Positions 13,274 through 31,793 of a stretch of 32,571 bases of DNA are shown piece after piece. Source of the DNA: Candidatus Aridivita willemsiae (GTDB taxonomy: Bacteria > Actinomycetota > CADDZG01 > WHSQ01); NCBI GenBank assembly GCA_013695835.1, contig JACCZU010000161.1, positions 1 to 32,571 of the forward strand. Reading direction: 5' to 3'. The position numbers and the translations under genes are program-made. Numbering within the stretch: position 1 is the stretch's first letter; each line of letters begins with the position of its first letter. The notes beneath the pieces are model-generated. The model had not been told where the DNA came from. It ran no database searches and saw only the letters and a program-made list of their open reading frames with translations.

Positions 13274-13384
13274 TGCGAGGTTCCCGTTAGGTGGGCTAGG
13301 TGGGCTCGTGGACGGCCGACCCGCTCAACTCGGGCGGCGTGGTCATCATACAGACCCCACCGGCGTCCCAAGGGAAGCGAGCTT

Positions 13385-13433
13385 GCTAATATGGCAACCA
13401 TAGTTGCGAATAACGCTACACAGTGATAGGGAT
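13385..13433. promoter_or_regulatory. Operator/promoter element A: GCTAATAtGGCAAC-cata-GTTGCgaataacGCTACA...ATAGGG
   Basis: Inverted repeat GGCAAC(13393-13398)-CATA-GTTGCG(13403-13408) between the divergent nitrilase and DmdA-like genes. Shares order and spacing with element C at 27072. Confidence 0.6.
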
Positions 13434-16999: not shown

Positions 17000-17638
17000 C
17001 TAAACCCCTCTCATTTCTGTAGATGTGTAACCGTCCACCTCAATGCCGAACTCGGCGCCCGCATCGAGCAACGCGCCGAACAAATAGCTTCCATATGACC
17101 GCTCGCAGTGCACGAGGTAGGAAGGCACACCACTTCTGTCGTCCCTTACGACGTCGGTGATTACCTTTGCCACCGAGCTGCGAAAGACGGCGCTGTTGGG
17201 CGACACGGCGTTGCCGAGATCGACGGCACAGAGCTTCGAAAGCAGAGGCCGAGCCGCTGCCCCCGTAAGCCGCATAAGTGTCCGTCCGTGGGTCACATCG
17301 AGCGCGCTGACGAGCTCCCGCTCGCCGCTAAGGTCTTCGACGGCGCCGACGAGGGCCCGCCCGCTTCCATGGGGCCCGAACAGCGTCCACTCGTCCGGGC
17401 CAGAACCGGTCACGAGCACCCCATCGGGGTTGGTACCGGCGCGCCCGAACGGGGTGCCGAGCCACCGCCCCACCGCCCCGTCCGGAGCGGCACGGACAAG
17501 GATCTTGGCAAGCGGCATGCAGTCGACGAGTGTCAGCCCGGCGCCGCTCCTGCGGCCGCTCACCTCCCAGCCGTCCACGACACTCGGTGGCTCGGCGGGG
17601 GTGATGGGGCTCCTTGCGATGACGGCGGGCTCAGCCAT
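17000..17638 (-). CDS. soxG: Sarcosine oxidase gamma subunit
   Basis: Position downstream of soxA; SGPDEWTLFGP, ALDVTHGRTLMRLTGAAARPLLSKLCAVDL, DRSGVPSYLVHCERSYGSYLFGALLDAGAEFG. Confidence 0.88.
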   Translation of the reverse strand: MAEPAVIARSPITPAEPPSVVDGWEVSGRRSGAGLTLVDCMPLAKILVRAAPDGAVGRWLGTPFGRAGTNPDGVLVTGSGPDEWTLFGPHGSGRALVGAVEDLSGERELVSALDVTHGRTLMRLTGAAARPLLSKLCAVDLGNAVSPNSAVFRSSVAKVITDVVRDDRSGVPSYLVHCERSYGSYLFGALLDAGAEFGIEVDGYTSTEMRGV

Positions 17639-20441
17639 GGAGGCGCTCCCCCTTGGGATCGACCTGTGCGAGCTGCGGCGTCACGACCGCTGGGACCCGG
17701 CTCCCGTCGGGAGCCACGATTGAGATGGCCGAGCCAGGCTCGGCCAGGTGGGGGGCGACGAAGCCCATACAGATGGAACGGCCAAGGGTCGGGGACATCC
17801 GGCTCGAGGTGATGCGGCCTACGATGATTCCTGCCTCGACGATCTGGCTGCCCTCGGCGGGCACGGCGGTCCCCTCGAGTGGGCGCAGGCCAACGAGTCG
17901 CAGGAAGTCGTCGCGGCCCTCTTGCCAGCCGAGCTCCGGTTTGCCCGCGAAGTCCTCCTTGTCGAGCTTCACCGCCCAGTCGAGGCCGGCCCCGTAGGCG
18001 CGCGTGAGCCCGTCTGTGTCCTGGCCAACGATGAGGTGTCCCTTCTCAAGCCGGAGGATGCGCTGGGCCTCGACGCCGAAAGGCTTTACGCCGAGATCGG
18101 CGCCTCGCTCCAACAGCGTCTCCCAGACCCCGAGCCCATAAGAAGCTGGAACGTGGATCTCATAGCTCAGCTCACCGGTGAAGCCGATGCGCCACATGAA
18201 CGAGCCGTCGATCCCGGCGATGGATCCCGACCGCACCCGCATGTAGGGAAACTCCTCGGGGCCGAGGGCGACGTCGTCAACGACCAGCGACAGCAGGTCG
18301 CGCGCACGCGGCCCTGCGATGTTGATGCTTGCGAAGTCGGAGGTGACCCTCGCGACGTGGACGCGCCATTCGGGATGCTCGGTCTGCAGCCAGCTCTCGA
18401 TCCACTCCCACACGGTCTCGGCGCCCGACGATGTGGCGGTCATGAGGTAGTGGTCGTCACCAAGCCGTCCGGTGACGCCGTCGTCGAGGACGACGCCATC
18501 CTCGGCGCACATGACCCCGTAGCGGACCGATCCGAGCGCAAGCTTCGACCACTTGTTGATGTAGAGCTGGTTGAGAAGCTTCGGCACGTCGGGCCCCCTG
18601 AGGTCGAATTTCCCGAGCGGGGTGACGTCGATGAGCCCGACGCCCGAGCGCACCGAGCGAACCTCGGCGGCCGGGTCGCCGTAATGATCGGGGCGGATCC
18701 ACTGTCCGGCAACAAGCGGCTTCGCGCCGTGCGCCTCGTGCCACGGCTGCATGGGCGAGTACCTGACCGGCTCGAAGGAGCGCCCTGCAAGGGCGCCGAG
18801 GGTCACGGGGCTGTAGGGGGGCCGCCACACGGTCGTACCCGTCGCCGCGATCGTGGCGCCGGTCGCGGCCGCGACCACGGCTACGGCATTGACGCTCTCG
18901 AGCTTTCCCTGCGCAGGTCCCATCGTGGCCGTCGTGTAGCGCTTGGCAAGCTCTATCGAGTCGTAGCCCTCGGCCACGGCCTCCTCGAGCTCTTTTGACG
19001 AGACGTCCTCGGAGAAGTCGACGAAGCCGTGGGTCCGGGCCTTGAACAGCGCGGGGTGGGCCTCCACCGGCAGGCTCGGTATCTCGGTGGTGGCCGAGAC
19101 CTCGTGAGCGCGGCGCGCGGCGGCCCGCCCGACGGCGCTCCCGTGGTCTATTAGCTGCTCGAGCGAGCCGTCCCCCGCGATGCCCCCGGTTGCAAGCACG
19201 TCGTCGTGACCCCCGCCGGGAAAGAAGCGGGCGGCGCGCTCGTTGTAAACGGGCCTGTCCCCGGCCATGTTGAGCAGCGACGTCGGCGCTGTCCATCCCA
19301 CAGCGGTGACGAGGAGGTCGCACTCGACGGTGGTGCCGTCGGCGCACTCGACCGCGCGCAACGTTCTCCCGCCCTTCGCCCGCACGACGTCTTCGCCGCT
19401 GCGGGCGTCCACGATCTTTAGGACATCGACTCCAGCGTCGGCGAGGTCACAGACGGCCGCGTCTCCGCTCGAGTTGGCGGTGAGGACGACGGCGCGCTCG
19501 CCGGGCTTGACCGCCCACAGATTGATGAGGCGCCGCGCGCCCGTCGACAGCATGACGCCCGGGATGTCGTTGCCTGAGAACACGTAGGGCCTCTCGATGA
19601 GGCCGGGAGCGGCGACGAGGACCCCGGCCCTTGCCTTGATCAAACGCTCGACCACTCCGGGCGCACTCCTTTGCACGACTGCCACCCAGTTCCCGTCGTA
19701 GCGCCCGGTCACGACCGAGTCGGTGAGCACCTCGATGCCGCCGGTAGCTGCGACGGCTCGCCGCAGGTCGCCGAGAGCGGCGAGCTCCGGGGCCGCGCCC
19801 CAGCGCAAGTGCCCTCCAAGCTCGGGCTCCCCCTCGACCAGCATCACCGCAGCGCCCGCAGCCGCGGCGGCAACGGCCGCTGCCATGCCTGCCGGCCCCC
19901 CTCCCGCAACGACGACGTCGGGATGCGCGTAGCGCTTGTCGTAGTAGTCGTGGGCGGCCTCAGGGCTCACGGCGCCGCCAGGGGAGAAGCCGCGGAGCAC
20001 CCTCTCGTAAGCGGGCCAGAGGCGCTTGGGCCGCATGAAGGTCTTGTAATAGAAGCCGGCCGAAAGAAAGGGGGCAAGCGCCCCGTTGGCCGACTTGACG
20101 TCGTAACGCAGCGACGGCCACGCGTTCTGAGGTCGCGCCGACATACCCGGCTCGACCATGCGGTGCGACGCGCGCACGTTTGGCTCGTCGCCAACCTGGA
20201 CGAGGCAGCCCGGGTCAAGGTAGCTCGTGGTCATGACTCCGCGCGGCCTGTGGTACTTGAAAGAGCGGGACATAACCCTCACCCCCGCCGCCGCAAGCGC
20301 AGAGGTGATCGTGTCGCCCCTGTAGGCGGGATAGGTGTCACCGTCCCATGTAAAGGTCAGGCCCCGGCTTCGGTCGATGATCTCGCCGGGCCGGGGGCCG
20401 AGCCGCATGTCCACCCCGGTCGCTTGAGCTTTGCGCCTCAC
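17631..20441 (-). CDS. soxA: Sarcosine oxidase alpha subunit
   Basis: RGLTFTWDGDTYPAYRGDTITSALAAAGVRVMSRSFKYHRPRG, NAD/FAD domain VVVAGGGPAGMAAAVAAAAAGA, C-terminal GcvT-like domain. GTG at 20441 overlaps the soxD stop (GTGA); the ORF-track start at 20735 is an over-extension. Confidence 0.93.
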   Translation of the reverse strand: MRRKAQATGVDMRLGPRPGEIIDRSRGLTFTWDGDTYPAYRGDTITSALAAAGVRVMSRSFKYHRPRGVMTTSYLDPGCLVQVGDEPNVRASHRMVEPGMSARPQNAWPSLRYDVKSANGALAPFLSAGFYYKTFMRPKRLWPAYERVLRGFSPGGAVSPEAAHDYYDKRYAHPDVVVAGGGPAGMAAAVAAAAAGAAVMLVEGEPELGGHLRWGAAPELAALGDLRRAVAATGGIEVLTDSVVTGRYDGNWVAVVQRSAPGVVERLIKARAGVLVAAPGLIERPYVFSGNDIPGVMLSTGARRLINLWAVKPGERAVVLTANSSGDAAVCDLADAGVDVLKIVDARSGEDVVRAKGGRTLRAVECADGTTVECDLLVTAVGWTAPTSLLNMAGDRPVYNERAARFFPGGGHDDVLATGGIAGDGSLEQLIDHGSAVGRAAARRAHEVSATTEIPSLPVEAHPALFKARTHGFVDFSEDVSSKELEEAVAEGYDSIELAKRYTTATMGPAQGKLESVNAVAVVAAATGATIAATGTTVWRPPYSPVTLGALAGRSFEPVRYSPMQPWHEAHGAKPLVAGQWIRPDHYGDPAAEVRSVRSGVGLIDVTPLGKFDLRGPDVPKLLNQLYINKWSKLALGSVRYGVMCAEDGVVLDDGVTGRLGDDHYLMTATSSGAETVWEWIESWLQTEHPEWRVHVARVTSDFASINIAGPRARDLLSLVVDDVALGPEEFPYMRVRSGSIAGIDGSFMWRIGFTGELSYEIHVPASYGLGVWETLLERGADLGVKPFGVEAQRILRLEKGHLIVGQDTDGLTRAYGAGLDWAVKLDKEDFAGKPELGWQEGRDDFLRLVGLRPLEGTAVPAEGSQIVEAGIIVGRITSSRMSPTLGRSICMGFVAPHLAEPGSAISIVAPDGSRVPAVVTPQLAQVDPKGERLHG

Positions 20442-20707
20442 GGCTGTGGCCCGCCGCGGCCCGGGAGGGTGACCGAAGTGACCTCGTTGGTCACCGTGTC
20501 GCGTTCGACCTTTAGATAACGCCTGCAACCTGCCCTGTGGAACCAGCTCTCCACAGTGGGGCCGGCGGGATTGCTGCGTAGATACAGATAGGAGCGCCAC
20601 TGCTCGGGGTCGACGCCATCCGGGTTCGGCCTCGTGAGGGCTTCGCCCACGTATTGGAACTCCGAGACGTTGCGCTCCCCGCAATGGGGGCACGGGATCA
20701 GGATCAC
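20438..20707 (-). CDS. soxD: Sarcosine oxidase delta subunit
   Basis: MILIPCPHCGERNVSEFQYVGEALTRPNPDGVDPEQWRSYLYLRSNPAGPTVESWFHRAGCRRYLKVERDT. Confidence 0.95.
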   Translation of the reverse strand: MILIPCPHCGERNVSEFQYVGEALTRPNPDGVDPEQWRSYLYLRSNPAGPTVESWFHRAGCRRYLKVERDTVTNEVTSVTLPGRGGPQP

Positions 20708-20752
20708 GCTTCCGGTCCTCCAGCCCCCGGGACATGGGCGGTGGCGGCGTCC

Positions 20753-22030
20753 TCAGTGCCCAACTGCCGCCGCCCCCTTCTCGCCGAGCAGCTCGCCCCG
20801 CATGAACCTGTCGAGGGAGAAGCCCGCGATCAGCTCGGGAGTCTTTCCTTCTGCGATGAGCTGAGCCATGGCCTCACCGGCCACGGGCCCTGCCTTGAAG
20901 CCGTAGGTGCCCCAGCCCACGTCCACGAGAAAGCCCTCGACGGGGGTTTGTCCCATGATTGGGGAGTAGTCGGGGGTCATGTCGCACAGCCCCGCCCACT
21001 GCCGCAGGACCCTCATCTTCGCCAAGGAAGGCATCAGCTCGAGGACGTGACCGGCCAGGCTCTCGATGAAATCGAGCGAGCCCCGCATCGAATAGGAGGG
21101 GAAGGGGTCGACCGCCGAGCCGAACACAAGCTCGCCGCGATCGGTCTGGCTCAGATAGACGTGCAGGCTGCCGGACACGATCACCGGGCCCAGAAACGGT
21201 CTCACGGGCTCAGTGACCGCGGCCTGCAGCGGGGAGGTCGTGATCGGCATTGCCACCCCGGCCATGTCCGAGATCAAGGTCGCCCATCCGGCGGTGGCGT
21301 TGACCACCACGGGGGTCGCCACTTTTCCCCCGCTCGTGGCAACGCCGCGCACGGCGCCCCCAGCGACGTCGATGCCGAGCACCTCGGTGTTCTGGTGGAT
21401 GTGCACTCCGCGGGAATCGGCGGCGCGCGCGTACCCCCAGACCACTGCATCGTGGCGGATGATGCCGCCCGGCGGGTGATAAAGCGCCCCGAGCACCGGA
21501 TAGCGAGCCTCGGACGACGTGTCGAGGTAGGGCACAAGCTCCTTGACCTGGGCGGTCGAGATCACTTCGGAGTCGATGCCCTCGAGCTTGTTGACCTCGG
21601 CGCGCCAGCGCATGGTTCTGAGCGAGCTGTCGTTGTGCGCAAGCGTGAGGTGTCCCCGTTGCGAGAACATCACGTTGAAGTTGAGCTCCGTCGACAGGGA
21701 CTCGTAGAGCTTGAGCGAGCGGTCGTAGAAGCGAACGCCCTCGGGGGTCAGGTAGTTCGAGCGGATGATCGCGGTGTTGCGCCCCGAGCCGCCGCTGCCG
21801 ATGTATCCCTTCTCGAGCACTGCGACGTTCGAGATCCCGTGGCGGGCGGCCAGGTAGTAGGCGGTGGCGAGCCCGTGCACGCCGCCGCCGACCACAACCA
21901 CGTCGTATGCCCTCCTGAGATCGTGGTTGTGCCACGCGCGCGGCCAGCCGTTCCTCGCCACGCCGTGGCGCGCGAGGTCGAAGGCCGAGTAGCGTCCCAT
22001 CCTGCGCGCTCCGTTTTTGACCGGCTTCAT
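20753..22030 (-). CDS. soxB: Sarcosine oxidase beta subunit
   Basis: MKPVKNGARRMGRYSAFDLARHG...YDVVVVGGGVHGLATAYYLAARHGISNVAVLEKGYIGSGGSGRNTAIIRSNYL. ATG at 22030 overlaps the iclR stop (ATGA). Confidence 0.95.
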   Translation of the reverse strand: MKPVKNGARRMGRYSAFDLARHGVARNGWPRAWHNHDLRRAYDVVVVGGGVHGLATAYYLAARHGISNVAVLEKGYIGSGGSGRNTAIIRSNYLTPEGVRFYDRSLKLYESLSTELNFNVMFSQRGHLTLAHNDSSLRTMRWRAEVNKLEGIDSEVISTAQVKELVPYLDTSSEARYPVLGALYHPPGGIIRHDAVVWGYARAADSRGVHIHQNTEVLGIDVAGGAVRGVATSGGKVATPVVVNATAGWATLISDMAGVAMPITTSPLQAAVTEPVRPFLGPVIVSGSLHVYLSQTDRGELVFGSAVDPFPSYSMRGSLDFIESLAGHVLELMPSLAKMRVLRQWAGLCDMTPDYSPIMGQTPVEGFLVDVGWGTYGFKAGPVAGEAMAQLIAEGKTPELIAGFSLDRFMRGELLGEKGAAAVGH

Positions 22031-22836
22031 CTCGAGCGGCCGTCCGATGACACTCGGTCGCCGGCGCGCGCCGGCGGCGTGCCGCCGACCTCGGCGGACA
22101 GGCTGTGGGCGCACTCGAGGAGCAGCGGCAGGGCTTCGTCCATCGCCTCGGCGTCGAAGCGTCCGCTTGGCCCCTGCAGACCCACGATTCCAAGGAGCTC
22201 GCCGCGCGCTCCTGCGACGGGGGCAGCGATGGCGCTCAAGTCGGGCTCTCGCTCGCGCGCGGCTTGAGCCCACCCGCGCCGGCGCGTCAGGTCCGCCTCC
22301 TCGGCGATCTCCTTGCGGCCGGTGACGGTCCACTCGGTATAGCGGGGCGGCTCTCCCGGGGGGAGCTTGCCGCCGTAGGCGAGGAACACCTTGCCAACGG
22401 CGGTCGCATGCGCAACGCTTGGGCGTCCCACCCGGGCGATGCTCTGGATCGAGGACTCGCCCTGGACGAAATCCACCGTCATCGCCTCGTCCTCGCCGGG
22501 CGCCGACAGGGTTGCGGTCTCCCCTGTGGTCGTCATGAGCCTCGTCAGATAGACGCGGGCGGCGTCCCTCAGGTCGAAGCGTGCGAGCGCTGCATTGCCG
22601 AGCTGGAGGACGCGCAGACCGAGGCGGTAGCGGCCGGTCTCGGCGGTCTGGCCGACAAACCCCCGCGCCGAGAGCGTTCCGAGGATCCTGGACACGGAGC
22701 TTGGGTTGATCCCCGTGCGCCTAGAGATCTCGTTGGTCCCGAGGTCCCGGTCCGACTCCGCCAACGCTTCGAGGACTGTGAGGGCGCGTTCGACGGAGCC
22801 CACGTGCCGCACGGTGGTGGGGTTGGTCCTCGGCAT
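22027..22836 (-). CDS. IclR-family transcriptional regulator, first gene of the sox operon
   Basis: N-terminal wHTH (SVERALTVLEALAESDRDLGTNEISRRTGINPSSVSRILGTLSARGFVGQ) and IclR effector domain (RVGRPSVAHATAVGKVFLAYG). Confidence 0.92.
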   Translation of the reverse strand: MPRTNPTTVRHVGSVERALTVLEALAESDRDLGTNEISRRTGINPSSVSRILGTLSARGFVGQTAETGRYRLGLRVLQLGNAALARFDLRDAARVYLTRLMTTTGETATLSAPGEDEAMTVDFVQGESSIQSIARVGRPSVAHATAVGKVFLAYGGKLPPGEPPRYTEWTVTGRKEIAEEADLTRRRGWAQAAREREPDLSAIAAPVAGARGELLGIVGLQGPSGRFDAEAMDEALPLLLECAHSLSAEVGGTPPARAGDRVSSDGRSR

Positions 22837-22852
22837 AGGGGCGTATGATACA

Positions 22853-22881
22853 CGCTACGGGCAACACCGTTGCCTGTAGCG
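22853..22881. promoter_or_regulatory. Operator B: perfect extended palindrome CGCTAC-g-GGCAAC-acc-GTTGCC-t-GTAGCG
   Basis: 29-nt palindrome read directly, in the divergent intergenic region of iclR (start 22836) and the FAD oxidoreductase (start 22955). Confidence 0.75.
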
Positions 22882-22954
22882 CAATATGAGCCGAGCGTCA
22901 TTGGGCGCTGCCGTGGCCTCGGCGGAGGACCAACGCTAAGGAAAGGAGTGGCGC

Positions 22955-24286
22955 GTGTCGCTTGAGGGCGCCAAGTACGTGGTAATCGGGGCAGGGGTCC
23001 ACGGCCTTTCGACCGCGTGGCACCTCGCCGGGGAGCTCAAGGCGACGGGCGCAGGCGACGGGCGCGACATCGCGGTGATCGACAAGCGCGATATTGCGGC
23101 GGGGGCCTCGGGGATCGCCTGCGGGGTGATCCGCAACAACTACTTCCAGCCCGCCATGCGCGAGCTGATGGCGCATTCCGTTTCGGTGTGGGAGTCGGAC
23201 CCGGCCGCTTTCGCCTATCACCCGGTCGGCTACATGCAAATCTCCCCCGAGGTCATGCACGCCGACGTGGCCCGGATCCACGAGGAGCAGAAGGCAATCG
23301 GCTATCCCTCGACCTTCATCGAGGGGGCGCAGGAGAGCCAGTCCTATATGCAGGACATGTTCTTCGACTGGCAGGCCGGAGGCATTACCAGCATCCTGCA
23401 TGAGCACAGGGGTGGCTACGCAAACAACAGGAAGTCGATGCTCGGGTTGGCCGGCAAGGCGGCCGCCGAGGGGGTCCGGATGCACCTCGGCGCAAAGGTC
23501 ACAGGTCTGCGGCGAGAGGGTGGCGCCGTCACCGCGGTGGAGACCGACTCAGGGACGGTGGCCTGCGACCACGTTGTGATCGCCGTCGGACCATGGATCC
23601 GCGATCTGTGGGCGATGCTCGACCTGCCGAGAACGATCCCGGTCGCTGCACCGGACCGCAGCCACTCCGTCGAGCGCGACATGTGGACCTACTGGGCGCT
23701 GCAGGAAGGCACGCTCGAGGTCGACCCGGGGTCCTTCACCGACAACAGGGGCCACATGCCGCCCGTCGTCCACGTCGACACTGACGCACCGCTCTACGAC
23801 GAGGCTGGCGCGCTCGTGACCGATGAGCTGTGGGGCATCTACTACAAGCCGGACTTCAACTTCGGTGGAGTGCAGGGAGGCGCCGCCCCCTACAGGGTCG
23901 ATCGCCCCACGGACGACGTCGCCGTCGACCCCTACGGGCCCGCAAGCCCCGACTTCGTCGTCGGCCAAGACTTCGCGCGCATGTGGACCGCGGCCCTCGC
24001 CCATTGCCACAAGCGCCTCGCCGGCACTTCGCACCTGTTCTCGAAAGAGCCGTCCGGCGGCATCGGGTGCTTTACCCCCGACAGCTTTCCCGTGTTCGAT
24101 GTCTTTTCCGACAACGCATACGTGATCGCCGACTCCAACCATGGCTACAAGATGCTGGGCGTCGGGGCGCTGGTGGCCAAGGAGCTCCTTGGGGAGAAAC
24201 AAGCCCTTCTCGAGCCCTTCCGGTTCTCCCGCTACGCAACCGGCAACCTCCACCCGGTGAGCCACTCGCCCTTCCCGTGGAGCTGA
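22955..24286 (+). CDS. FAD-dependent oxidoreductase, DAO family (sarcosine/dimethylglycine oxidase SoxB-like)
   Basis: GTG start preceded by AAGGAAAGGAG. KYVVIGAGVHGLSTAWHLAGELK, AAGASGIACGVIRNNYF, GIGCFTPDSFPVFDVFSDNAYVIADSNHGYKMLGVGALVAKELLG. Confidence 0.9.
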   Translation: MSLEGAKYVVIGAGVHGLSTAWHLAGELKATGAGDGRDIAVIDKRDIAAGASGIACGVIRNNYFQPAMRELMAHSVSVWESDPAAFAYHPVGYMQISPEVMHADVARIHEEQKAIGYPSTFIEGAQESQSYMQDMFFDWQAGGITSILHEHRGGYANNRKSMLGLAGKAAAEGVRMHLGAKVTGLRREGGAVTAVETDSGTVACDHVVIAVGPWIRDLWAMLDLPRTIPVAAPDRSHSVERDMWTYWALQEGTLEVDPGSFTDNRGHMPPVVHVDTDAPLYDEAGALVTDELWGIYYKPDFNFGGVQGGAAPYRVDRPTDDVAVDPYGPASPDFVVGQDFARMWTAALAHCHKRLAGTSHLFSKEPSGGIGCFTPDSFPVFDVFSDNAYVIADSNHGYKMLGVGALVAKELLGEKQALLEPFRFSRYATGNLHPVSHSPFPWS

Positions 24287-24288
24287 CC

Positions 24289-25137
24289 GTGCCCGATGCA
24301 ACGCTCGAGCTGTCGCAAACGGTTGAGCTTCCAGAGGGCGTCATCGCCTGGGACGTCTACGGCCACGGCCCTCCGGTCGTGCTCGTGCACGGGACTCCGA
24401 CAAGCTCTTATCTGTGGCGGCGCGTGGCCCCCGTGCTCAGTGAGACCTTTTCCGTCTACATCTTCGACCTCTTGGGCTACGGACGATCGAGAGCTCAAGC
24501 GCAGGCCGATGTCTCACTTCCCGTGCAGGGCTCCATCGTGACCGGGCTGCTCGACCACTGGGGCGTTCAGGGCGCCGGGGTGGTGGGTCACGACATCGGA
24601 GGCGCCGCCGTGCTCAGGGCGCACCTGATCGACGGCGTGCCGTTTGCATGCGCCGCGTTGCTCGATGCCGTCGTCACGCGTCCGTGGATCACCGCCACGA
24701 CGCGGCACGTCCAAGCGCATCTCGATGCCTACAAGACGATGCCGGGGCACGTCTACAAACAGATCGTCGCCACCCATTTGCGCACAGCGGTTCACGGCAC
24801 GATCGACGATGCCACCCTCGAGGCCTATTTGTCCCAGTGGACCGGAGCGGACGGGCAGGCGGCTTATCTGCGGAAGGTGGAGCTCTTCGATGAGGACCAC
24901 ACCACCGCCATCGAAGCGCGCCTCGGCGAGGTGAAGGTTCCGGTGCAGGTCATCTGGGGGCAACACGACGCATGGCTCCCGATCGAGGCCGCCGAGCGCG
25001 TCGTGGCTCGGGTACCGACGGCTCGCCTGACGACCGTGCCCGACGCCGGCCACTTCGTAATGGAGGATCAGCCACAAGAAGTCGCGCGGCTGTTGCACGA
25101 GTTCTTCGCGTCCTGCTTGATCGGGGACGCCGCATGA
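24289..25137 (+). CDS. Alpha/beta hydrolase with haloalkane dehalogenase/epoxide-hydrolase-like Asp nucleophile
   Basis: VVLVHGTPTSSYLWRRVAP, VVGHDIGGAA (Asp at the nucleophile elbow), WGQHDAWLP, DAGHFVMEDQP. Start could also be GTG at 24277. Confidence 0.85.
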   Translation: MPDATLELSQTVELPEGVIAWDVYGHGPPVVLVHGTPTSSYLWRRVAPVLSETFSVYIFDLLGYGRSRAQAQADVSLPVQGSIVTGLLDHWGVQGAGVVGHDIGGAAVLRAHLIDGVPFACAALLDAVVTRPWITATTRHVQAHLDAYKTMPGHVYKQIVATHLRTAVHGTIDDATLEAYLSQWTGADGQAAYLRKVELFDEDHTTAIEARLGEVKVPVQVIWGQHDAWLPIEAAERVVARVPTARLTTVPDAGHFVMEDQPQEVARLLHEFFASCLIGDAA

Positions 25138-26180
25138 CCGCGCCCGGAGGCAACGGGCTCCTCGAGCGGCTTGCTGCCGGTCCCGTCATCTGTGCGGAGG
25201 GTTATCTGTTTGAGCTCGAGCGGCGCGGGTACGTGCAGGCGGGCGCGTTCGTCCCCGAGGTCGTGCTCCAGCATCCCGAGGAGGTGACTCAGCTACACCG
25301 TGAGTTCGTGCACGCCGGCTCCGACGTTGTGGAGGCGTTTACCTATTACGGGCACAGAGAGAAGCTCAGGACGATCGGCAAGGAGGACATCCTCGAGGAG
25401 CTCAACCGCACGGCCCTATCACTTGCCGGTGAGGTCGCGCGCACGAGCGGCACCCTGCTTGCGGGAAACATCTGCAACACGAACCTGTGGGACCCCGGCG
25501 ACGATGGCAGCCTTCCAGCGGTCCGCACGATGTTCGAGGAACAGGTGGGCTGGGCCGTAGAAGCCGGCGTCGATCTCGTCATCGGGGAGACCTTCAGCTA
25601 TGCCGAGGAGTCTCTGGCCGCCCTCGAGGTCATCAAGTCGGCAGGTCTAGCCTCAGTGATCATGCTCGCCATACACAAGGAGGGGACGCCGCGCGAGGGC
25701 AGGCCGGTCGCAGAGGCGTGCAAACGATTGTCCGATGCGGGGGCCGACGTCGTGGGGCTCAACTGCATAAGGGGCCCCGAGACGATGCTTCCCCTCATCA
25801 AGGCCATCGTCCCGGCCGTTGATTCCTATGTTGCTGCGCTGCCGGTTCCCTACCGAACCACAGAGGCGCAGCCGACCTTTCAGTCGCTGAGGGACCCGGT
25901 GCTCGAGGGTGTGAGGGATCGGCCCTTCCCGACCGCACTCGACCCCTTCACCTGCTCGCGCTACGAGATCGCCGACTTCACCGTCAGAGCGCAGGCGCTC
26001 GGCGTCGGCTATTTCGGAGTTTGCTGCGGCGCGGGGCCCCATCACATCCGAAGCATGGCCGAGGCCCTCGGCCGAACCCCTCCCGCTAGCCGTTACTCGC
26101 CGGACATGGCCAAGCACGCTTTTCTCGGTGCAGACGCCCGTCTGCGCCCCCACAACCTGGTCTTCAGGGAAAGCCTCTAA
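25134..26180 (+). CDS. Homocysteine S-methyltransferase, betaine--homocysteine methyltransferase (BHMT)-like
   Basis: GLLERLAAGPVICAEGYLFELERRGYVQAGAFVPEVVLQHPEEVTQLHREFVHAGSDVVEAFTYYGHREKL; Zn-ligand motifs VGLNC and GVCCGAGPHHIR. ATGA overlap with the upstream hydrolase. Confidence 0.88.
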   Translation: MTAPGGNGLLERLAAGPVICAEGYLFELERRGYVQAGAFVPEVVLQHPEEVTQLHREFVHAGSDVVEAFTYYGHREKLRTIGKEDILEELNRTALSLAGEVARTSGTLLAGNICNTNLWDPGDDGSLPAVRTMFEEQVGWAVEAGVDLVIGETFSYAEESLAALEVIKSAGLASVIMLAIHKEGTPREGRPVAEACKRLSDAGADVVGLNCIRGPETMLPLIKAIVPAVDSYVAALPVPYRTTEAQPTFQSLRDPVLEGVRDRPFPTALDPFTCSRYEIADFTVRAQALGVGYFGVCCGAGPHHIRSMAEALGRTPPASRYSPDMAKHAFLGADARLRPHNLVFRESL

Positions 26181-27037
26181 GGGGCGGCCTCGAGCGCCCG
26201 CCGCCTCCACTCTTCCGTGGCCTCGACCTGGTTGAAGGTGTAGAAGTGGTAGCCGGCGATGTCGTCGGCGCCCGTTCGCCGGCTCAGCTCGGCGATGAGG
26301 GGGCCGGGGCTGTAGGCCCTCCGGCCGAGCAGTCCCGCCATCAGGTTCCTGTTCTTTGACACGAAGCGGCTCGAGTCCCCGACGCCGATTCGAAGCGCAA
26401 GACGAATCAGCCGCGCGCGCTCGACGACCCCGGCGATGCCAACGTGGACGGGCAGTGTGACGTCGTGCGCACGGGCGTTTCTGATCCACGCCGCTATCGC
26501 GCCCGCCTCGAAGCACAGCTGCGTGACCGCATAGGTCGCCCAGCGTTGCTTTAGGCGCAGCTCATGCCACAGAGTGGCGTCGTCGACGGTGGGGTGACCC
26601 TCAGGGTAAGAGGCGACTCCCACTTGATCGAAGGTGAAGCCGCCCTCGGCGAAGAAGTTGAGGAGCGACGCTGCTGAAGGAAAGGGCCCGGCCGGCTGCT
26701 TGACGTCGCCGCCGATGACGAAGATGTGTCCGATCCCGAGGCGGGCGAGCCTCGCGCCTATGCGTTGTGCGTGCGCCCGATCGACGACGAGGCGGGCAGA
26801 GAGGTGCGGCGTCACATCGATGCCCGCATCGATCAGGCGCTCGGCGAGGTCGAGGGTGGCCCCGATGCCCCTCCGAGGAGAGCAGGTGATTGCAATGCTT
26901 GCGGGCCGCGTCCGGGCTACCCTTGCTGCGATGCCTTCGACGGGAAAGATCTCAATTGTTGGGCGCGCAAGGAGATGCGGCCGGGCACCGATCGCGCGAT
27001 CGGGCGCGTTTTCAAGCGGGGCGGCAGGCTCCTGCAG
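26177..27037 (-). CDS. metF: Methylenetetrahydrofolate reductase family protein, probable CTG start
   Basis: Reading upstream of the track start (26815) in the same frame continues homology: LQEPAAPLENAPDRAIGARPHLLARPTIEIFPVEGIAARVARTRPASIAITCSPRRGIGATLDLAERLIDAGIDVTPHLSARLV...GHIFVIGGDVKQPAGPF. AGGAGG lies 9 nt before the CTG at 27037. Confidence 0.8.
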   Translation of the reverse strand: MQEPAAPLENAPDRAIGARPHLLARPTIEIFPVEGIAARVARTRPASIAITCSPRRGIGATLDLAERLIDAGIDVTPHLSARLVVDRAHAQRIGARLARLGIGHIFVIGGDVKQPAGPFPSAASLLNFFAEGGFTFDQVGVASYPEGHPTVDDATLWHELRLKQRWATYAVTQLCFEAGAIAAWIRNARAHDVTLPVHVGIAGVVERARLIRLALRIGVGDSSRFVSKNRNLMAGLLGRRAYSPGPLIAELSRRTGADDIAGYHFYTFNQVEATEEWRRRALEAAP

Positions 27038-27071
27038 CGGGATCGTCCTCCTTCAGATTCCTTGTCGTTAT

Positions 27072-27117
27072 GCTAATAGGGCAACTTCGGTTGCCATTGT
27101 TGCTACAACTATAGGGT
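27072..27117. promoter_or_regulatory. Operator/promoter element C: GCTAATAgGGCAAC-ttcg-GTTGCCattgttGCTACAACTATAGGGT
   Basis: Perfect inverted repeat 27080-27095 (GGCAAC-TTCG-GTTGCC), second palindrome GTTG-CTA-CAAC 27099-27109, and TAGGGT 7 nt before the iclR2 ATG. Lies between divergent metF and iclR2. Confidence 0.65.
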
Positions 27118-27124
27118 AAATACC

Positions 27125-27913
27125 ATGCCTGGGACGACGGGAACAAGTCTTCGGCGGGGAATAGCAGTCCTTTTGGCCCTTGCATCCGACGACGCAAGGG
27201 CAGGGGGACTCGGGGTGACGAGGATCGCCGCGCTCACGGGACATGAAAAGAGCCAGATCTCCCGGACCCTCAAGACCCTGGCGGAGCTCGGGCTCGTTGA
27301 CCGGGACCCCTCGACGCTTGCATACAGGCTGGGGTGGCAGCTGTTCGCCCTTGCCTCACACGCAGGCGATCAGCCCTTGCTTGCGGCCGCCTCACCACTG
27401 CTCGACAGCTTGGTGAGCGGGCTCGGCGAGGGGGCTCACCTGTCCGTCCTCCAGGGGACCGACGTGCTCACCGTGCTTTCGAAGTCCTCGGAGCGAGCCG
27501 TCAGGGCCGTCGGCTGGGTCGGCCACACCGTTCCCGCCTACTGCACGTCGTCGGGACGGGCGCTCCTGCTCGACCATTCGATCGAAGACCTCAAGGTCTT
27601 GTGGCCGGGCCGGCGGTTCGAGCGAGCGGGGCCGAGGTCGCCGAGTCACCTTGCCGAGCTTCACGAACGAATCGAGGTGGCGAGGGCGCTTGGCTACAGC
27701 GTCGCCGACGAAGAGCTCGAGCAGGGACTCGTCGGCGTGGCCGCCCCGGTGAGGGATCTGCGGGGCAGAATTGTGGCGGCCATCGACGTCTCGGCACCGA
27801 AGTTCCGGCTGGCCGACACTCTGGACGACGCCGCACGCAAGGTCAGGGCGGCCGCCGACGAGCTCTCCTACATCGTCGACTGGAACACCGCAAGGGGCGA
27901 AGGCACGGCTTGA
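27125..27913 (+). CDS. IclR-family transcriptional regulator
   Basis: SLRRGIAVLLALASDDARAGGLGVTRIAALTGHEKSQISRTLKTLAELGLVDRD; effector domain ...VGHTVPAYCTSSGRALLLDHS..., EELEQGLVGVAAPVRD. Confidence 0.92.
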   Translation: MPGTTGTSLRRGIAVLLALASDDARAGGLGVTRIAALTGHEKSQISRTLKTLAELGLVDRDPSTLAYRLGWQLFALASHAGDQPLLAAASPLLDSLVSGLGEGAHLSVLQGTDVLTVLSKSSERAVRAVGWVGHTVPAYCTSSGRALLLDHSIEDLKVLWPGRRFERAGPRSPSHLAELHERIEVARALGYSVADEELEQGLVGVAAPVRDLRGRIVAAIDVSAPKFRLADTLDDAARKVRAAADELSYIVDWNTARGEGTA

Positions 27914-28003
27914 ATGCCTTATGAGCAACGCCATGTCCTCTAAGGCAATCATGCGAAGCAGTGGCCCAAAAGGCTCCGGCCGGCCCGAAAGTGCTAGTCT
28001 TGG

Positions 28004-28067: not shown

Positions 28068-28094
28068 ATGAAGCTTCGCGCCGGGCGTAACTGA
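28068..28094 (+). other. Possible 8-codon mini-ORF (MKLRAGRN*) overlapping the permease start
   Basis: ATG at 28068 preceded by GGGGGAGGGG; its TGA (28092-28094) overlaps the permease ATG (28094) as TGATG. Confidence 0.3.
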
Positions 28095-28747
28095 TGGATA
28101 TCTTCATCACCTATCTTAGGTTCGCCATTCCGGACCATCTCATCGCGGCTTCCGGAGCACACGCGGCTGCGGTGGGGATCTCGGTTCTGCTGTCCTCGAT
28201 CATCGGCATCACCCTTGGGTGCTTCGCCTATCGGAGACGGCGCCTTGCCGACATCTCACTGGCGGTCGCCGGCACCATCATCACGATTCCATCGTTTGCC
28301 CTGTTTGCCCTTCTGGTCCCGTTTCTGGGATTCGGGTGGCCGCCGACCATCGTCGCACTGACCGCCTACGGCGTGCTCCCCATCCTGCGCAACACGATCA
28401 CCGGCTTGCAGGGCGTCGACTCCGCGGTCACGGACTCGGCTCAGGGAGTGGGGTTGAGCAGCAGGCAACGGTTGTTCCGCATCGAGCTGCCGCTGGCGTC
28501 GCCGGTGATCATCGCCGGCGTTCGGGTGTCCACCCTCATCCTGCTGGGGATCGCCGCCATTGCCGCCATCGTGGCCGGTCCCGGCCTTGGCGAAGACATC
28601 TTTTCCGGCTTGGCCCGCTTGGGAAGCGCCACGGCCCTCTATCTCGTGCTCAGCAGCGTGATGTTCATCGTCATGCTTGCGATCGCTTTCGACATTGCAT
28701 TCCTGCTCTTTAGGAAGTTCGCCATCTCCAAGGGCATCAGACAGTAG
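28094..28747 (+). CDS. Osmoprotectant (glycine betaine/choline/carnitine-type) ABC transporter permease
   Basis: TIITIPSFALFALLVPFLGFGWPPTIVALTAYGVLPILRNTITGLQGVDSAVTDSAQGVGLSSRQRLFRIELPLASPVIIAGVR (OpuCB/OpuBB-like). Confidence 0.92.
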   Translation: MDIFITYLRFAIPDHLIAASGAHAAAVGISVLLSSIIGITLGCFAYRRRRLADISLAVAGTIITIPSFALFALLVPFLGFGWPPTIVALTAYGVLPILRNTITGLQGVDSAVTDSAQGVGLSSRQRLFRIELPLASPVIIAGVRVSTLILLGIAAIAAIVAGPGLGEDIFSGLARLGSATALYLVLSSVMFIVMLAIAFDIAFLLFRKFAISKGIRQ

Positions 28748-28784
28748 GACCGATGCCGAGGACTGCGCACCGAGGAGGCCCAAT

Positions 28785-29987
28785 ATGATCACGTTAGAGA
28801 ATCTCACCAAGACCTTCGCAGGTCAGAAAGAGCCCGCCGTTAAGGATCTGTCGATGGAGGTGCCCGAGGGCGAGATCGTCGTGCTCGTTGGTCCGTCCGG
28901 GTGCGGGAAGACCACGACCATGCGTTTGGTGAACCGTTTGATCGAGCCCGACTCCGGCAAGATCTACCTCGAGGGTGAGGACGTCACCTCGGTCGACTCC
29001 GACCAGCTGCGCCGGCGCATCGGCTACGTCATCCAGCAGATAGGCCTGTTTCCGCACATGACGATTGGCGAGAATATTGCAACCGTTCCCCACCTCGTTG
29101 GGTGGGACAACAAGAAGACGTCCGACCGGATCGACGAGCTGCTCAACATGGTGGGTATGGACCCGACCGATTACCGGAATCGTTATCCCAAAGAGCTGTC
29201 CGGAGGGCAGAAGCAACGGATCGGCGTGGCGCGCGCGATGGCCGCCGACCCTTCTGTGATGCTCATGGACGAGCCCTTCGGCGCAGTCGATCCCATCACG
29301 CGCTCGAAACTGCAAAACGAGTTCTTGCGCCTGCAGGAAGGCATCAAGAAGACGATCATTTTCGTCACCCACGACATCGACGAAGCCATCAAGATGGGGG
29401 ACCGGATCGCAATTCTCCGGGACCACTCGACGATCGCCCAATATGACAAGCCGGAGAACATCCTCCTCAATCCGGCAGACGACTTCGTAGCCAGCTTCAT
29501 TGGGACGGGGGCATCGCTGAAGCGCCTCAATCTCGCCAAGCTCGGCGATGTCGAGCTCGTGGACTGGCCGACCGCGAAGCTCGAAGCCGGCGCCGACGAG
29601 GCGCGCGCGGTGCTTGATCGCTCAGACAAAGAGTGGGTCCTGTTGCTCGACGAGCAGAGGCATCCGCAGCGCTGGGTCAACGGCGACCACCTTGCGCAGG
29701 GCAACGGGGCGCTCGAGGACTCCGGCGTCCCTGCAACCTCGACCGCCATCATGGACACCACGCTCTCGAGCGCCCTCGCCGACATGCTCACGTCGGAGAA
29801 CTCCACCGTCATCGTGATCGACTCCGACGGCGCCTATCAAGGTGTCGCAGACCTCCCCACGATCACCAAGGCTACGAAGGCCATGCGCGTCGAGGCGCAC
29901 GGAGGAGAAGGCCACGATGCGATTGAGGAGCATGGAGAGGACAAAGAGGATGCCTCAGCGGGGCGCCTGAAGGACGCTGAGGCGTAG
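28785..29987 (+). CDS. Osmoprotectant ABC transporter ATP-binding protein with CBS-like C-terminus
   Basis: LVGPSGCGKTTTMRLVNRLIEPDSGKIYLEGEDV, YVIQQIGLFPHMTIGENIATVP, LSGGQKQRIGVARAMAADPSVMLMDEPFGAVDP. Confidence 0.93.
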   Translation: MITLENLTKTFAGQKEPAVKDLSMEVPEGEIVVLVGPSGCGKTTTMRLVNRLIEPDSGKIYLEGEDVTSVDSDQLRRRIGYVIQQIGLFPHMTIGENIATVPHLVGWDNKKTSDRIDELLNMVGMDPTDYRNRYPKELSGGQKQRIGVARAMAADPSVMLMDEPFGAVDPITRSKLQNEFLRLQEGIKKTIIFVTHDIDEAIKMGDRIAILRDHSTIAQYDKPENILLNPADDFVASFIGTGASLKRLNLAKLGDVELVDWPTAKLEAGADEARAVLDRSDKEWVLLLDEQRHPQRWVNGDHLAQGNGALEDSGVPATSTAIMDTTLSSALADMLTSENSTVIVIDSDGAYQGVADLPTITKATKAMRVEAHGGEGHDAIEEHGEDKEDASAGRLKDAEA

Positions 29988-30775
29988 TGGCGAGCCTCCA
30001 GGAGCAGGCGGCAACCCTGCTCGAACCGGCGCCGGGGCGAGGGGCGAGGGCGGCCCGGGCACTGCCACACTATTTGGCGCTTCCCGCCCTGGTGGCGCTG
30101 GTGCTCGCGGCGCTCTACTTCTACGTCAACAGCCAGGAGCTCGACACGATCGAGGCGCGTTCGATCAGCTTTCCAATCATCCAGCAACGCACGCTCGAGC
30201 ACATTGGGATTACTGCGGCCTCCACCATCGCCGTGATCATTATCGCCGTCCCGCTTGGCATCCTGCTGACGCGGCCCCGCGCGAGGTTCATCACGCCCGT
30301 ATTCCTGGCGGTGGCGAACACCGGGCAGGCCACTCCTTCCATCGGCGTGCTTGCCCTCATAGCGATCGTCTGGAGGATCGGTTTCGGGCCCGCAGTCGTC
30401 GGCCTCGTCGCCTATGCGGTGTTGCCCATCCTGCGCAACACGATGGTGGGCCTCGATGGGGTGGACCGGTCCATGATCGAGGCGGGCCGAGGCATGGGCA
30501 TGTCCAAGACGAAGGCCTTGACCGGCATTGAGATTCCACTTGCCGTTCCCGTGATACTGGCCGGGATCCGTACGGCCCTCGTCATCAATGTGGGCACGGC
30601 TGCGCTGGCGTGGTCCATAGACGGCGGGGGGCTCGGCGACATCATCCAAACCGGACTGTCGTTGAATCGAGACGTGGTGGTGATCACCGGAGCCGTGCTG
30701 ACGTCGGCGCTGGCTCTGCTCATCGACTGGTTGGGAGGCATCGTCGAGGATGTGTTGAGGCCCAAGGGATTGTGA
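29987..30775 (+). CDS. Osmoprotectant ABC transporter permease (second)
   Basis: NTGQATPSIGVLALIAIVWRIGFGPAVVGLVAYAVLPILRNTMVGLDGVDRSMIEAGRGMGMSKTKALTGIEIPLAVPVILAGIRTALVINVGTAALAW. GTG overlaps the upstream stop. Confidence 0.92.
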   Translation: MASLQEQAATLLEPAPGRGARAARALPHYLALPALVALVLAALYFYVNSQELDTIEARSISFPIIQQRTLEHIGITAASTIAVIIIAVPLGILLTRPRARFITPVFLAVANTGQATPSIGVLALIAIVWRIGFGPAVVGLVAYAVLPILRNTMVGLDGVDRSMIEAGRGMGMSKTKALTGIEIPLAVPVILAGIRTALVINVGTAALAWSIDGGGLGDIIQTGLSLNRDVVVITGAVLTSALALLIDWLGGIVEDVLRPKGL

Positions 30776-30824
30776 ATCGATTGCAAGTGCGTGGTGCGGA
30801 ACTCAGAGAGGAAGGGAGCCTGTG

Positions 30825-31793
30825 ATGGTGATCGGGAACATGAGGAAGAGACTGGTAGGAGCGGCGTTGATCGTTGCCTTGCTCGGCGCGGCCTGCGGCA
30901 GCGACGAGGGTGGCGGAACGGCCCCGTCAGGCGGTGCTGGGGAAGCCGATCTCTCCGGGGCCGAATTCACGGTCGGCTCAAAGGAGTTCACCGAGCAGCT
31001 CGTCCTCTCTCAGATCGCCATTCAGGTGCTCGAGGGCGCAGGGGCCACGGTTGAGGACAAGACCAAGCTGCCGGGGAGTGTTCAGGCGCGCAGCGCGCTC
31101 GAGAACGGCCAGATCGACATGTACTGGGAGTACACGGGGACCGGCTGGATCGTCTATCTCAAGCACACCAAACCCATCCTCGATGCCCAGAAGCAGTTCG
31201 ATGCGGTGGCCGAGGAAGACATGCAGAAGAACGGTGTCGCGTGGCTCGACCCTGCGCCCGCCGACAACACCTACGCGATCGCCGCAAGCAACGAGACGAT
31301 CGAACAGGATGGCGCCAAAACGCTCACCGAGCTCACCCAGCTCATCGAGGAGGACCCAAGCGCCGCCTCGCTATGTGTAGGGACCGAGTTCGCGGTGCGC
31401 GACGACGGGTTGCCCGGCCTCGAGCAGCATTACGGCTTCCAGTGGCCGACCGACCAGATCTCGAAGGTCGGAGAAGGCCTCATTTATGAACAGGTCGACA
31501 CGGCGGACACGTGCTCCTACGGAGAGGTCTTTGCCACCGACGGGCGCATCAAAGGGCTTGATCTGACGGTGCTCGAGGACGACAAGCAGTTCTTCGCCAT
31601 CTACAACCCGGCGCTGACGATCAACGAGGACGCCTTCAAGGAGTACGGTCCCGAGCTCGAGCAGATCTTCGAGCCCATTTCCGACAAGCTCACGACCGAG
31701 GAGCTCCAGGCTCTGAACGCCCAGGTCGACGTCGACGGGCTCCCAGAAGAGCAGGTGGCCCAGATGTGGCTGAGCGAGAACGGATTCATCTAG
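30825..31793 (+). CDS. Osmoprotectant ABC transporter substrate-binding lipoprotein (OpuBC/OpuCC-like)
   Basis: Lipobox LLGAACGSDEGG; FTVGSKEFTEQLVLSQIAIQVLEGAGATVEDKTKLPGSVQARSALENGQIDMYWEYTGTGW. Confidence 0.93.
   Translation: MVIGNMRKRLVGAALIVALLGAACGSDEGGGTAPSGGAGEADLSGAEFTVGSKEFTEQLVLSQIAIQVLEGAGATVEDKTKLPGSVQARSALENGQIDMYWEYTGTGWIVYLKHTKPILDAQKQFDAVAEEDMQKNGVAWLDPAPADNTYAIAASNETIEQDGAKTLTELTQLIEEDPSAASLCVGTEFAVRDDGLPGLEQHYGFQWPTDQISKVGEGLIYEQVDTADTCSYGEVFATDGRIKGLDLTVLEDDKQFFAIYNPALTINEDAFKEYGPELEQIFEPISDKLTTEELQALNAQVDVDGLPEEQVAQMWLSENGFI

Follow-up and report, generated by a model that had tools for sequence, protein, structure and literature searches.

A conserved three-box element as predicted operator of the IclR-family regulator IclR1 in Candidatus Aridivita willemsiae

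Results

A three-box element is conserved upstream of iclR1

The inverted repeat between the IclR-family gene iclR1 and a divergent FAD oxidoreductase gene in Candidatus Aridivita willemsiae contains two boxes of a conserved three-box element (site B), and we consider it highly probable that this element is an operator through which the adjacent regulator, IclR1, would control both iclR1 and the divergent operon in response to a ligand. Features are listed in Table 1, numbered by the window, i.e. the whole 32,571 nt stretch of DNA that was analysed.

Table 1. Predicted sites and neighbouring genes in the window
Feature	Position	Strand	Basis or remark
Site B, predicted three-box operator: ATTGCG-ctaca-GGCAAC-ggt-GTTGCC (IclR strand)	22860-22885	-	best matrix match in window
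Site B, box 1: ATTGCG on IclR strand (CGCAAT on +)	22880-22885	-	orthologues keep RTTGCC at N5 from box 2
Site B, box 2: GGCAAC on IclR strand (GTTGCC on +)	22869-22874	-	orthologue conservation
Site B, box 3: GTTGCC on IclR strand (GGCAAC on +)	22860-22865	-	orthologue conservation; N3 in 32 loci
Site B, possible degenerate box 4: TACACG	22849-22854	.	weak, inferred; matching + strand match 5.5 bits
Inverted repeat CGCTAC-g-GGCAAC-acc-GTTGCC-t-GTAGCG = CGCTACGGGCAACACCGTTGCCTGTAGCG	22853-22881	.	direct read; 12/13 arm positions pair
TATCAT, -10-like hexamer of iclR1	22845-22850	-	sequence; 8 nt before ATG
iclR1, IclR-family regulator, 269 aa	22027-22836	-	Pfam HTH_IclR and IclR_C above cut-off
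soxB-soxA-soxG, sarcosine oxidase family	17000-22333	-	downstream of iclR1
Divergent FAD oxidoreductase, alpha/beta hydrolase and homocysteine S-methyltransferase genes	22955-26180	+	FAD gene divergent from IclR relative in 27 loci
Site D, second IclR1-type site: AATGCC-ttatg-AGCAAC-gcc-ATGTCC	27913-27938	+	21.0 bits, orthologue-derived matrix
Site D, possible box 4: GGCAAT	27944-27949
iclR2, second IclR-family regulator	27125-27913	+	32% identical to IclR1
Site A, IclR2-type: CTTGCT-aatat-GGCAAC-cata-GTTGCG-aataa-CGCTAC	13382-13419	.	N4 between inner boxes
Site C, IclR2-type: TATGCT-aatag-GGCAAC-ttcg-GTTGCC-attgt-TGCTAC	27069-27106	.	N4; upstream of iclR2

The repeat lies between iclR1 on the minus strand and the FAD gene, which starts at 22955 on the plus strand. 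The preliminary description placed it 17 nt upstream of the iclR1 ATG (22836, minus strand), next to a TATCAT hexamer, and the sequence bears this out, with TATCAT (minus strand, 22850-22845) falling between repeat and start codon. The same description called the repeat a perfect 29-nt palindrome, but g22859 stands unpaired opposite t22875 and the ACC spacer is asymmetric. A repeat search of the surrounding stretch did not list it. For random sequence of the same length and dinucleotide make-up, about 0.65 inverted repeats of any sequence (13-nt arms mismatched at one position at most, spacer 0-10 nt) are expected per window by chance, so the length and pairing of the repeat are not evidence of function. 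The core itself, GGCAAC-N2-6-GTTGCC, occurs twice in the window and was absent from 100 shuffles; GGCAAC-N3-4-GTTGCC has three occurrences in the entire genome (2.5 Mb) versus none for the reversed pattern, the third match lying within an apparent hydantoinase-B coding sequence. Judged from sequence comparison, it is conservation, not length, that makes the element real.

IclR1 relatives with 60-65% identity and a divergent FAD gene are encoded in G011, G009 and G015, all genomes of the same family, and more were found further away. In G011 the core GGCAACACCGTTGCC is identical and the outer arm absent, while G009 and G015 have GTTGCC-N5-GGCAAC or nearly so; setting the upstream regions of the relatives side by side reconciled these patterns as parts of one shared element, which on the IclR strand reads RTTGCC-N5-GGCAAY-N3-RTKKCM, three boxes of alternating direction. 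The GGCAAC-acc-GTTGCC motif first drawn thus comprises boxes 2 and 3 only. It overlooked box 1, which overlaps the right arm of the repeat and runs past its end, and the "extra CGCTAC/GTAGCG arm" consists of spacer and a portion of box 1 and shows no conservation (CCGTAC / ATCGTG in G011, the nearest orthologue).

Phylogenetic footprinting, which the preliminary description had itself proposed as a test, found the element upstream in 46 of 75 loci encoding IclR1 relatives (44-100% identity, several actinobacterial families), typically with some 45-50 nt between it and the start codon; we called the element at a matrix score above 12, the null distribution having its 99.9% point at 6.5 and its maximum at 10.6. 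Spacing is nearly invariant, with RTTGC-N7-GCAAY in 31 loci, GCAAY-N3-RTKBC in 32 and any other spacing in at most one. Mean conservation is 0.97 bits per column within the element and 0.10 and 0.22 in its flanks; boxes 1 and 2 (RTTGCC-N5-GGCAAY) are at least as conserved among the relatives as boxes 2 and 3, and box 3 tolerates the most variation. With the orthologue-derived matrix, site B scores 23.8 bits, the top score in the window, and the highest score in 2.5 Mb of simulated sequence was 15.9. When its own family (f1) was excluded from the matrix, site B still scored 19.6 bits and the G011 site 12.6, against a maximum of 10.6 over 3,800 shuffles. Since the shuffles keep nothing but base composition, and the loci share ancestry rather than being independent, these figures describe strong conservation and not exact probabilities. 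Within its kind, site B is a relatively weak member, box 1 being ATTGCG and its genome E-value only 0.006.

All 27 loci with a divergent FAD gene have it, versus 19 of the 48 without (Fisher p = 3.5e-8), and none of the 29 loci that lack the element has a divergent FAD gene. On the tree, proteins whose genes carry the motif are scattered among many branches (11 label changes). In some relatives (G015, G126) just a few nucleotides separate box 1 from the FAD start codon, which means that element and FAD promoter must overlap in those genomes.

Exact scans of 25 related genomes for GGCAAC-N-GTTGCC and GTTGCC-N-GGCAAC gave matches in most and were mostly uninformative, the counts for GTTGCC-N-GGCAAC being about equal to those of the reversed control. 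One scan of related contigs returned a single relative, L004; its contig and that of L008 have the same length and are apparently one and the same. We rejected an identical GGCAACACCGTTGCC in G007 as an operator, since it lies within an apparent coding sequence. A subgroup of loci (L130, L134 and L136), counted here as lacking the motif, has ATTGCC-N5-GGCAAC or similar over the presumed start codon of the IclR relative (ACCATTGCCGTCATGGCAAC), with the first two boxes placed differently.

Predicted regulon of IclR1

IclR1 belongs to the IclR family, with an N-terminal HTH_IclR domain (61.5 bits) and a C-terminal IclR_C domain (97.9 bits), both above cut-off. Lying behind iclR1 on the same strand, the sox genes may share a transcript with it, so that a single operator could serve iclR1-sox as well as the FAD operon. 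As listed, the soxB open reading frame (20753-22333, minus) shares ~300 nt with the 3' part of iclR1; given this overlap and a family match that begins at residue 114, its true start is probably later. A methylenetetrahydrofolate-reductase-like open reading frame (26177-26815, minus) matches only profile positions 88-281 of 287; either its true start may lie further upstream or the gene may be truncated.

Run against the organism's own genome, a sequence-only model of this element gave only two matches at E up to 1, both in this cluster: site B, which was in the training set of the model, as the best (18.5 bits, E 0.006), and site D (27915-27938; 14.9 bits, E 0.09), which was outside it. Site D starts at the iclR2 stop codon, 156 nt before a permease gene at 28094, where a set of glycine-betaine-type transporter genes begins (28094-31793). 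Among the orthologue contigs searched, we found no counterpart of site D. In G011, an IclR1-type site (L163:1500-1525; G011:C61:10521-10545) lies at the start codon of an apparent FAD/NAD(P)-binding oxidoreductase gene, a possible further member of the regulon.

Box spacing differs between the two IclR regulators

Sites A and C are similar four-box elements that share a 4-nt inner spacing and a common TGCTAATA-N-GGCAAC, and are therefore probably IclR2 sites. Site A precedes a GcvT-like gene (GTG 13474) by ~55 nt, with a nitrilase-like gene in the divergent direction. Of 10 loci encoding IclR2 or a relative, 7 have an upstream inner spacing of 4 nt and none has 3 nt; scored with the same strict third box, IclR1 relatives have 3 nt at 12 loci and never 4 nt (Fisher p = 2e-5). 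In one further locus with an IclR2 relative (L158), a 4-nt site lies near the other end of the gene. The G015 orthologue of IclR2 (59%) lacks a box pair close to its start, and a wider search for IclR2 in one class added no loci. The earlier suggestion that a 3- versus 4-nt spacer separates the two regulators is thus supported by phylogenetic footprinting of both protein groups.

Discussion

We propose that IclR1 would bind the 26-nt ATTGCG-N5-GGCAAC-N3-GTTGCC just upstream of the -10-like hexamer of its own gene. The boxes lie immediately upstream of TATCAT, at the -35 location, so binding should exclude RNA polymerase from the iclR1 promoter. The divergent start is close by, so one site plausibly serves both directions and would also block the promoter of the FAD/hydrolase/methyltransferase operon. 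A pathway metabolite would then release IclR1 or convert it to an activator; the gene content suggests a methylated glycine, and sarcosine or dimethylglycine would be our guess. Site D, in front of the glycine-betaine transporter genes, would couple uptake to breakdown. Autorepression together with control of the divergent operon had been suggested before. Joint control is well supported by conservation across orthologues, while IclR1 binding, its sign (repression or activation) and the ligand are things that we infer. Repression is the likeliest sign for iclR1, and either repression or ligand-dependent activation is possible for the catabolic operons. A scan for sigma-70 consensus promoters found none on either strand.

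If boxes 2 and 3, extended by CGCTAC/GTAGCG, were the whole operator for one IclR dimer, we would understand why both boxes are perfect here and in G011, and "group 2" IclR motifs with that layout are known (PMC8222616). The relatives make this reading quite improbable, however, given the relaxed box 3, the conservation of boxes 1 and 2 and the unconserved outer arm. It is likewise unlikely that site B is bound by IclR2, or by both IclR proteins: its inner boxes match exactly those of site C beside iclR2, but the relatives of IclR2 have 4-nt and never 3-nt spacing, and those of IclR1 the reverse. We think it possible, though short of an even chance, that spacing acts as a code, with the same box sequence used by both regulators and cross-talk avoided by 3 nt at the IclR1 sites (B and D) versus 4 nt at the IclR2 sites (A and C). 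Flanking differences between the two motifs could also carry specificity. With both 3-nt and 4-nt sites present, the cluster is a clean natural setting in which to ask whether IclR specificity is set by spacing alone.

Two further explanations seem to us barely tenable. The 13-bp arm could fold in RNA as a terminator, attenuator or riboswitch, but we rejected such a reading: a scan found no terminator-like site, the window has no Rfam match, the outer arm is unconserved, the conserved three-box layout does not form one hairpin, and transcription of iclR1 probably starts downstream of the element. A functionless chance repeat would be in keeping with the number of repeats of equal length and mismatch level expected per window, but not with position-specific conservation in 46 loci alongside the regulator, nor with the scores obtained when the site's own family was left out. 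The reading that best accounts for these observations is a three-box operator for IclR1. By sequence comparison, this would assign an operator and a small regulon (the FAD/methyltransferase operon, probably sox and probably the glycine-betaine transporter) to an uncharacterised group of IclR proteins linked with sarcosine-type catabolism in Actinomycetota. Among the papers searched for IclR in combination with either sarcosine oxidase or glycine betaine plus dimethylglycine, no study devoted to such a regulator was listed.

Operators of this kind are known. A survey of the IclR family describes sites of three alternating boxes in 32 orthologous groups, one neighbouring pair having the group 1 layout and the other that of group 2 (Suvorova and Gelfand, 2021; PMC8222616). 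Site B resembles these in its alternating boxes near an IclR-family gene and close to the gene start, in having one pair with group 1 spacing (N5) and the other with group 2 spacing (N3, where 3-4 nt is the inner spacing), and in its conservation upstream of orthologous regulators. It differs from the sites as described there in its box sequence (RTTGCC/GGCAAY rather than GTTYC/GRAAC) and in its sarcosine/FAD/methyltransferase regulon. The operators of PcaU, PobR and HmgR are described there as a palindrome plus an extra box, as at site B, the extra box being required for PcaU binding; PcaU is an activator, according to the survey's reference list (PMC8222616). Site B differs from these operators in box sequence and pathway, and IclR1 falls outside the PcaR/PcaU/PobR family (NCBIfam TIGR02431; 119.3 bits, cut-off 284.75). 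Its best NCBIfam match is the IclR-family regulator BhcR (NF045644), a likeness by protein profile alone and below the cut-off (145.7 bits versus 350). Tandem IclR sites described in the same source have centres 18-22 nt apart (PMC8222616). Box 4 of site B could possibly complete such a pair, its two 17-nt palindromes then having centres 20 nt apart, but the score of box 4 (5.5 bits) does not support it. Three-box IclR operators have thus already been described, and it is well supported by sequence features, with the 32 groups compared through their published description, that site B is a new example. The element is real, conserved and ordinary in kind, with an unusually clean contrast in spacing, and most likely serves as a docking site that would switch iclR1 and the divergent methylamine-degradation genes.
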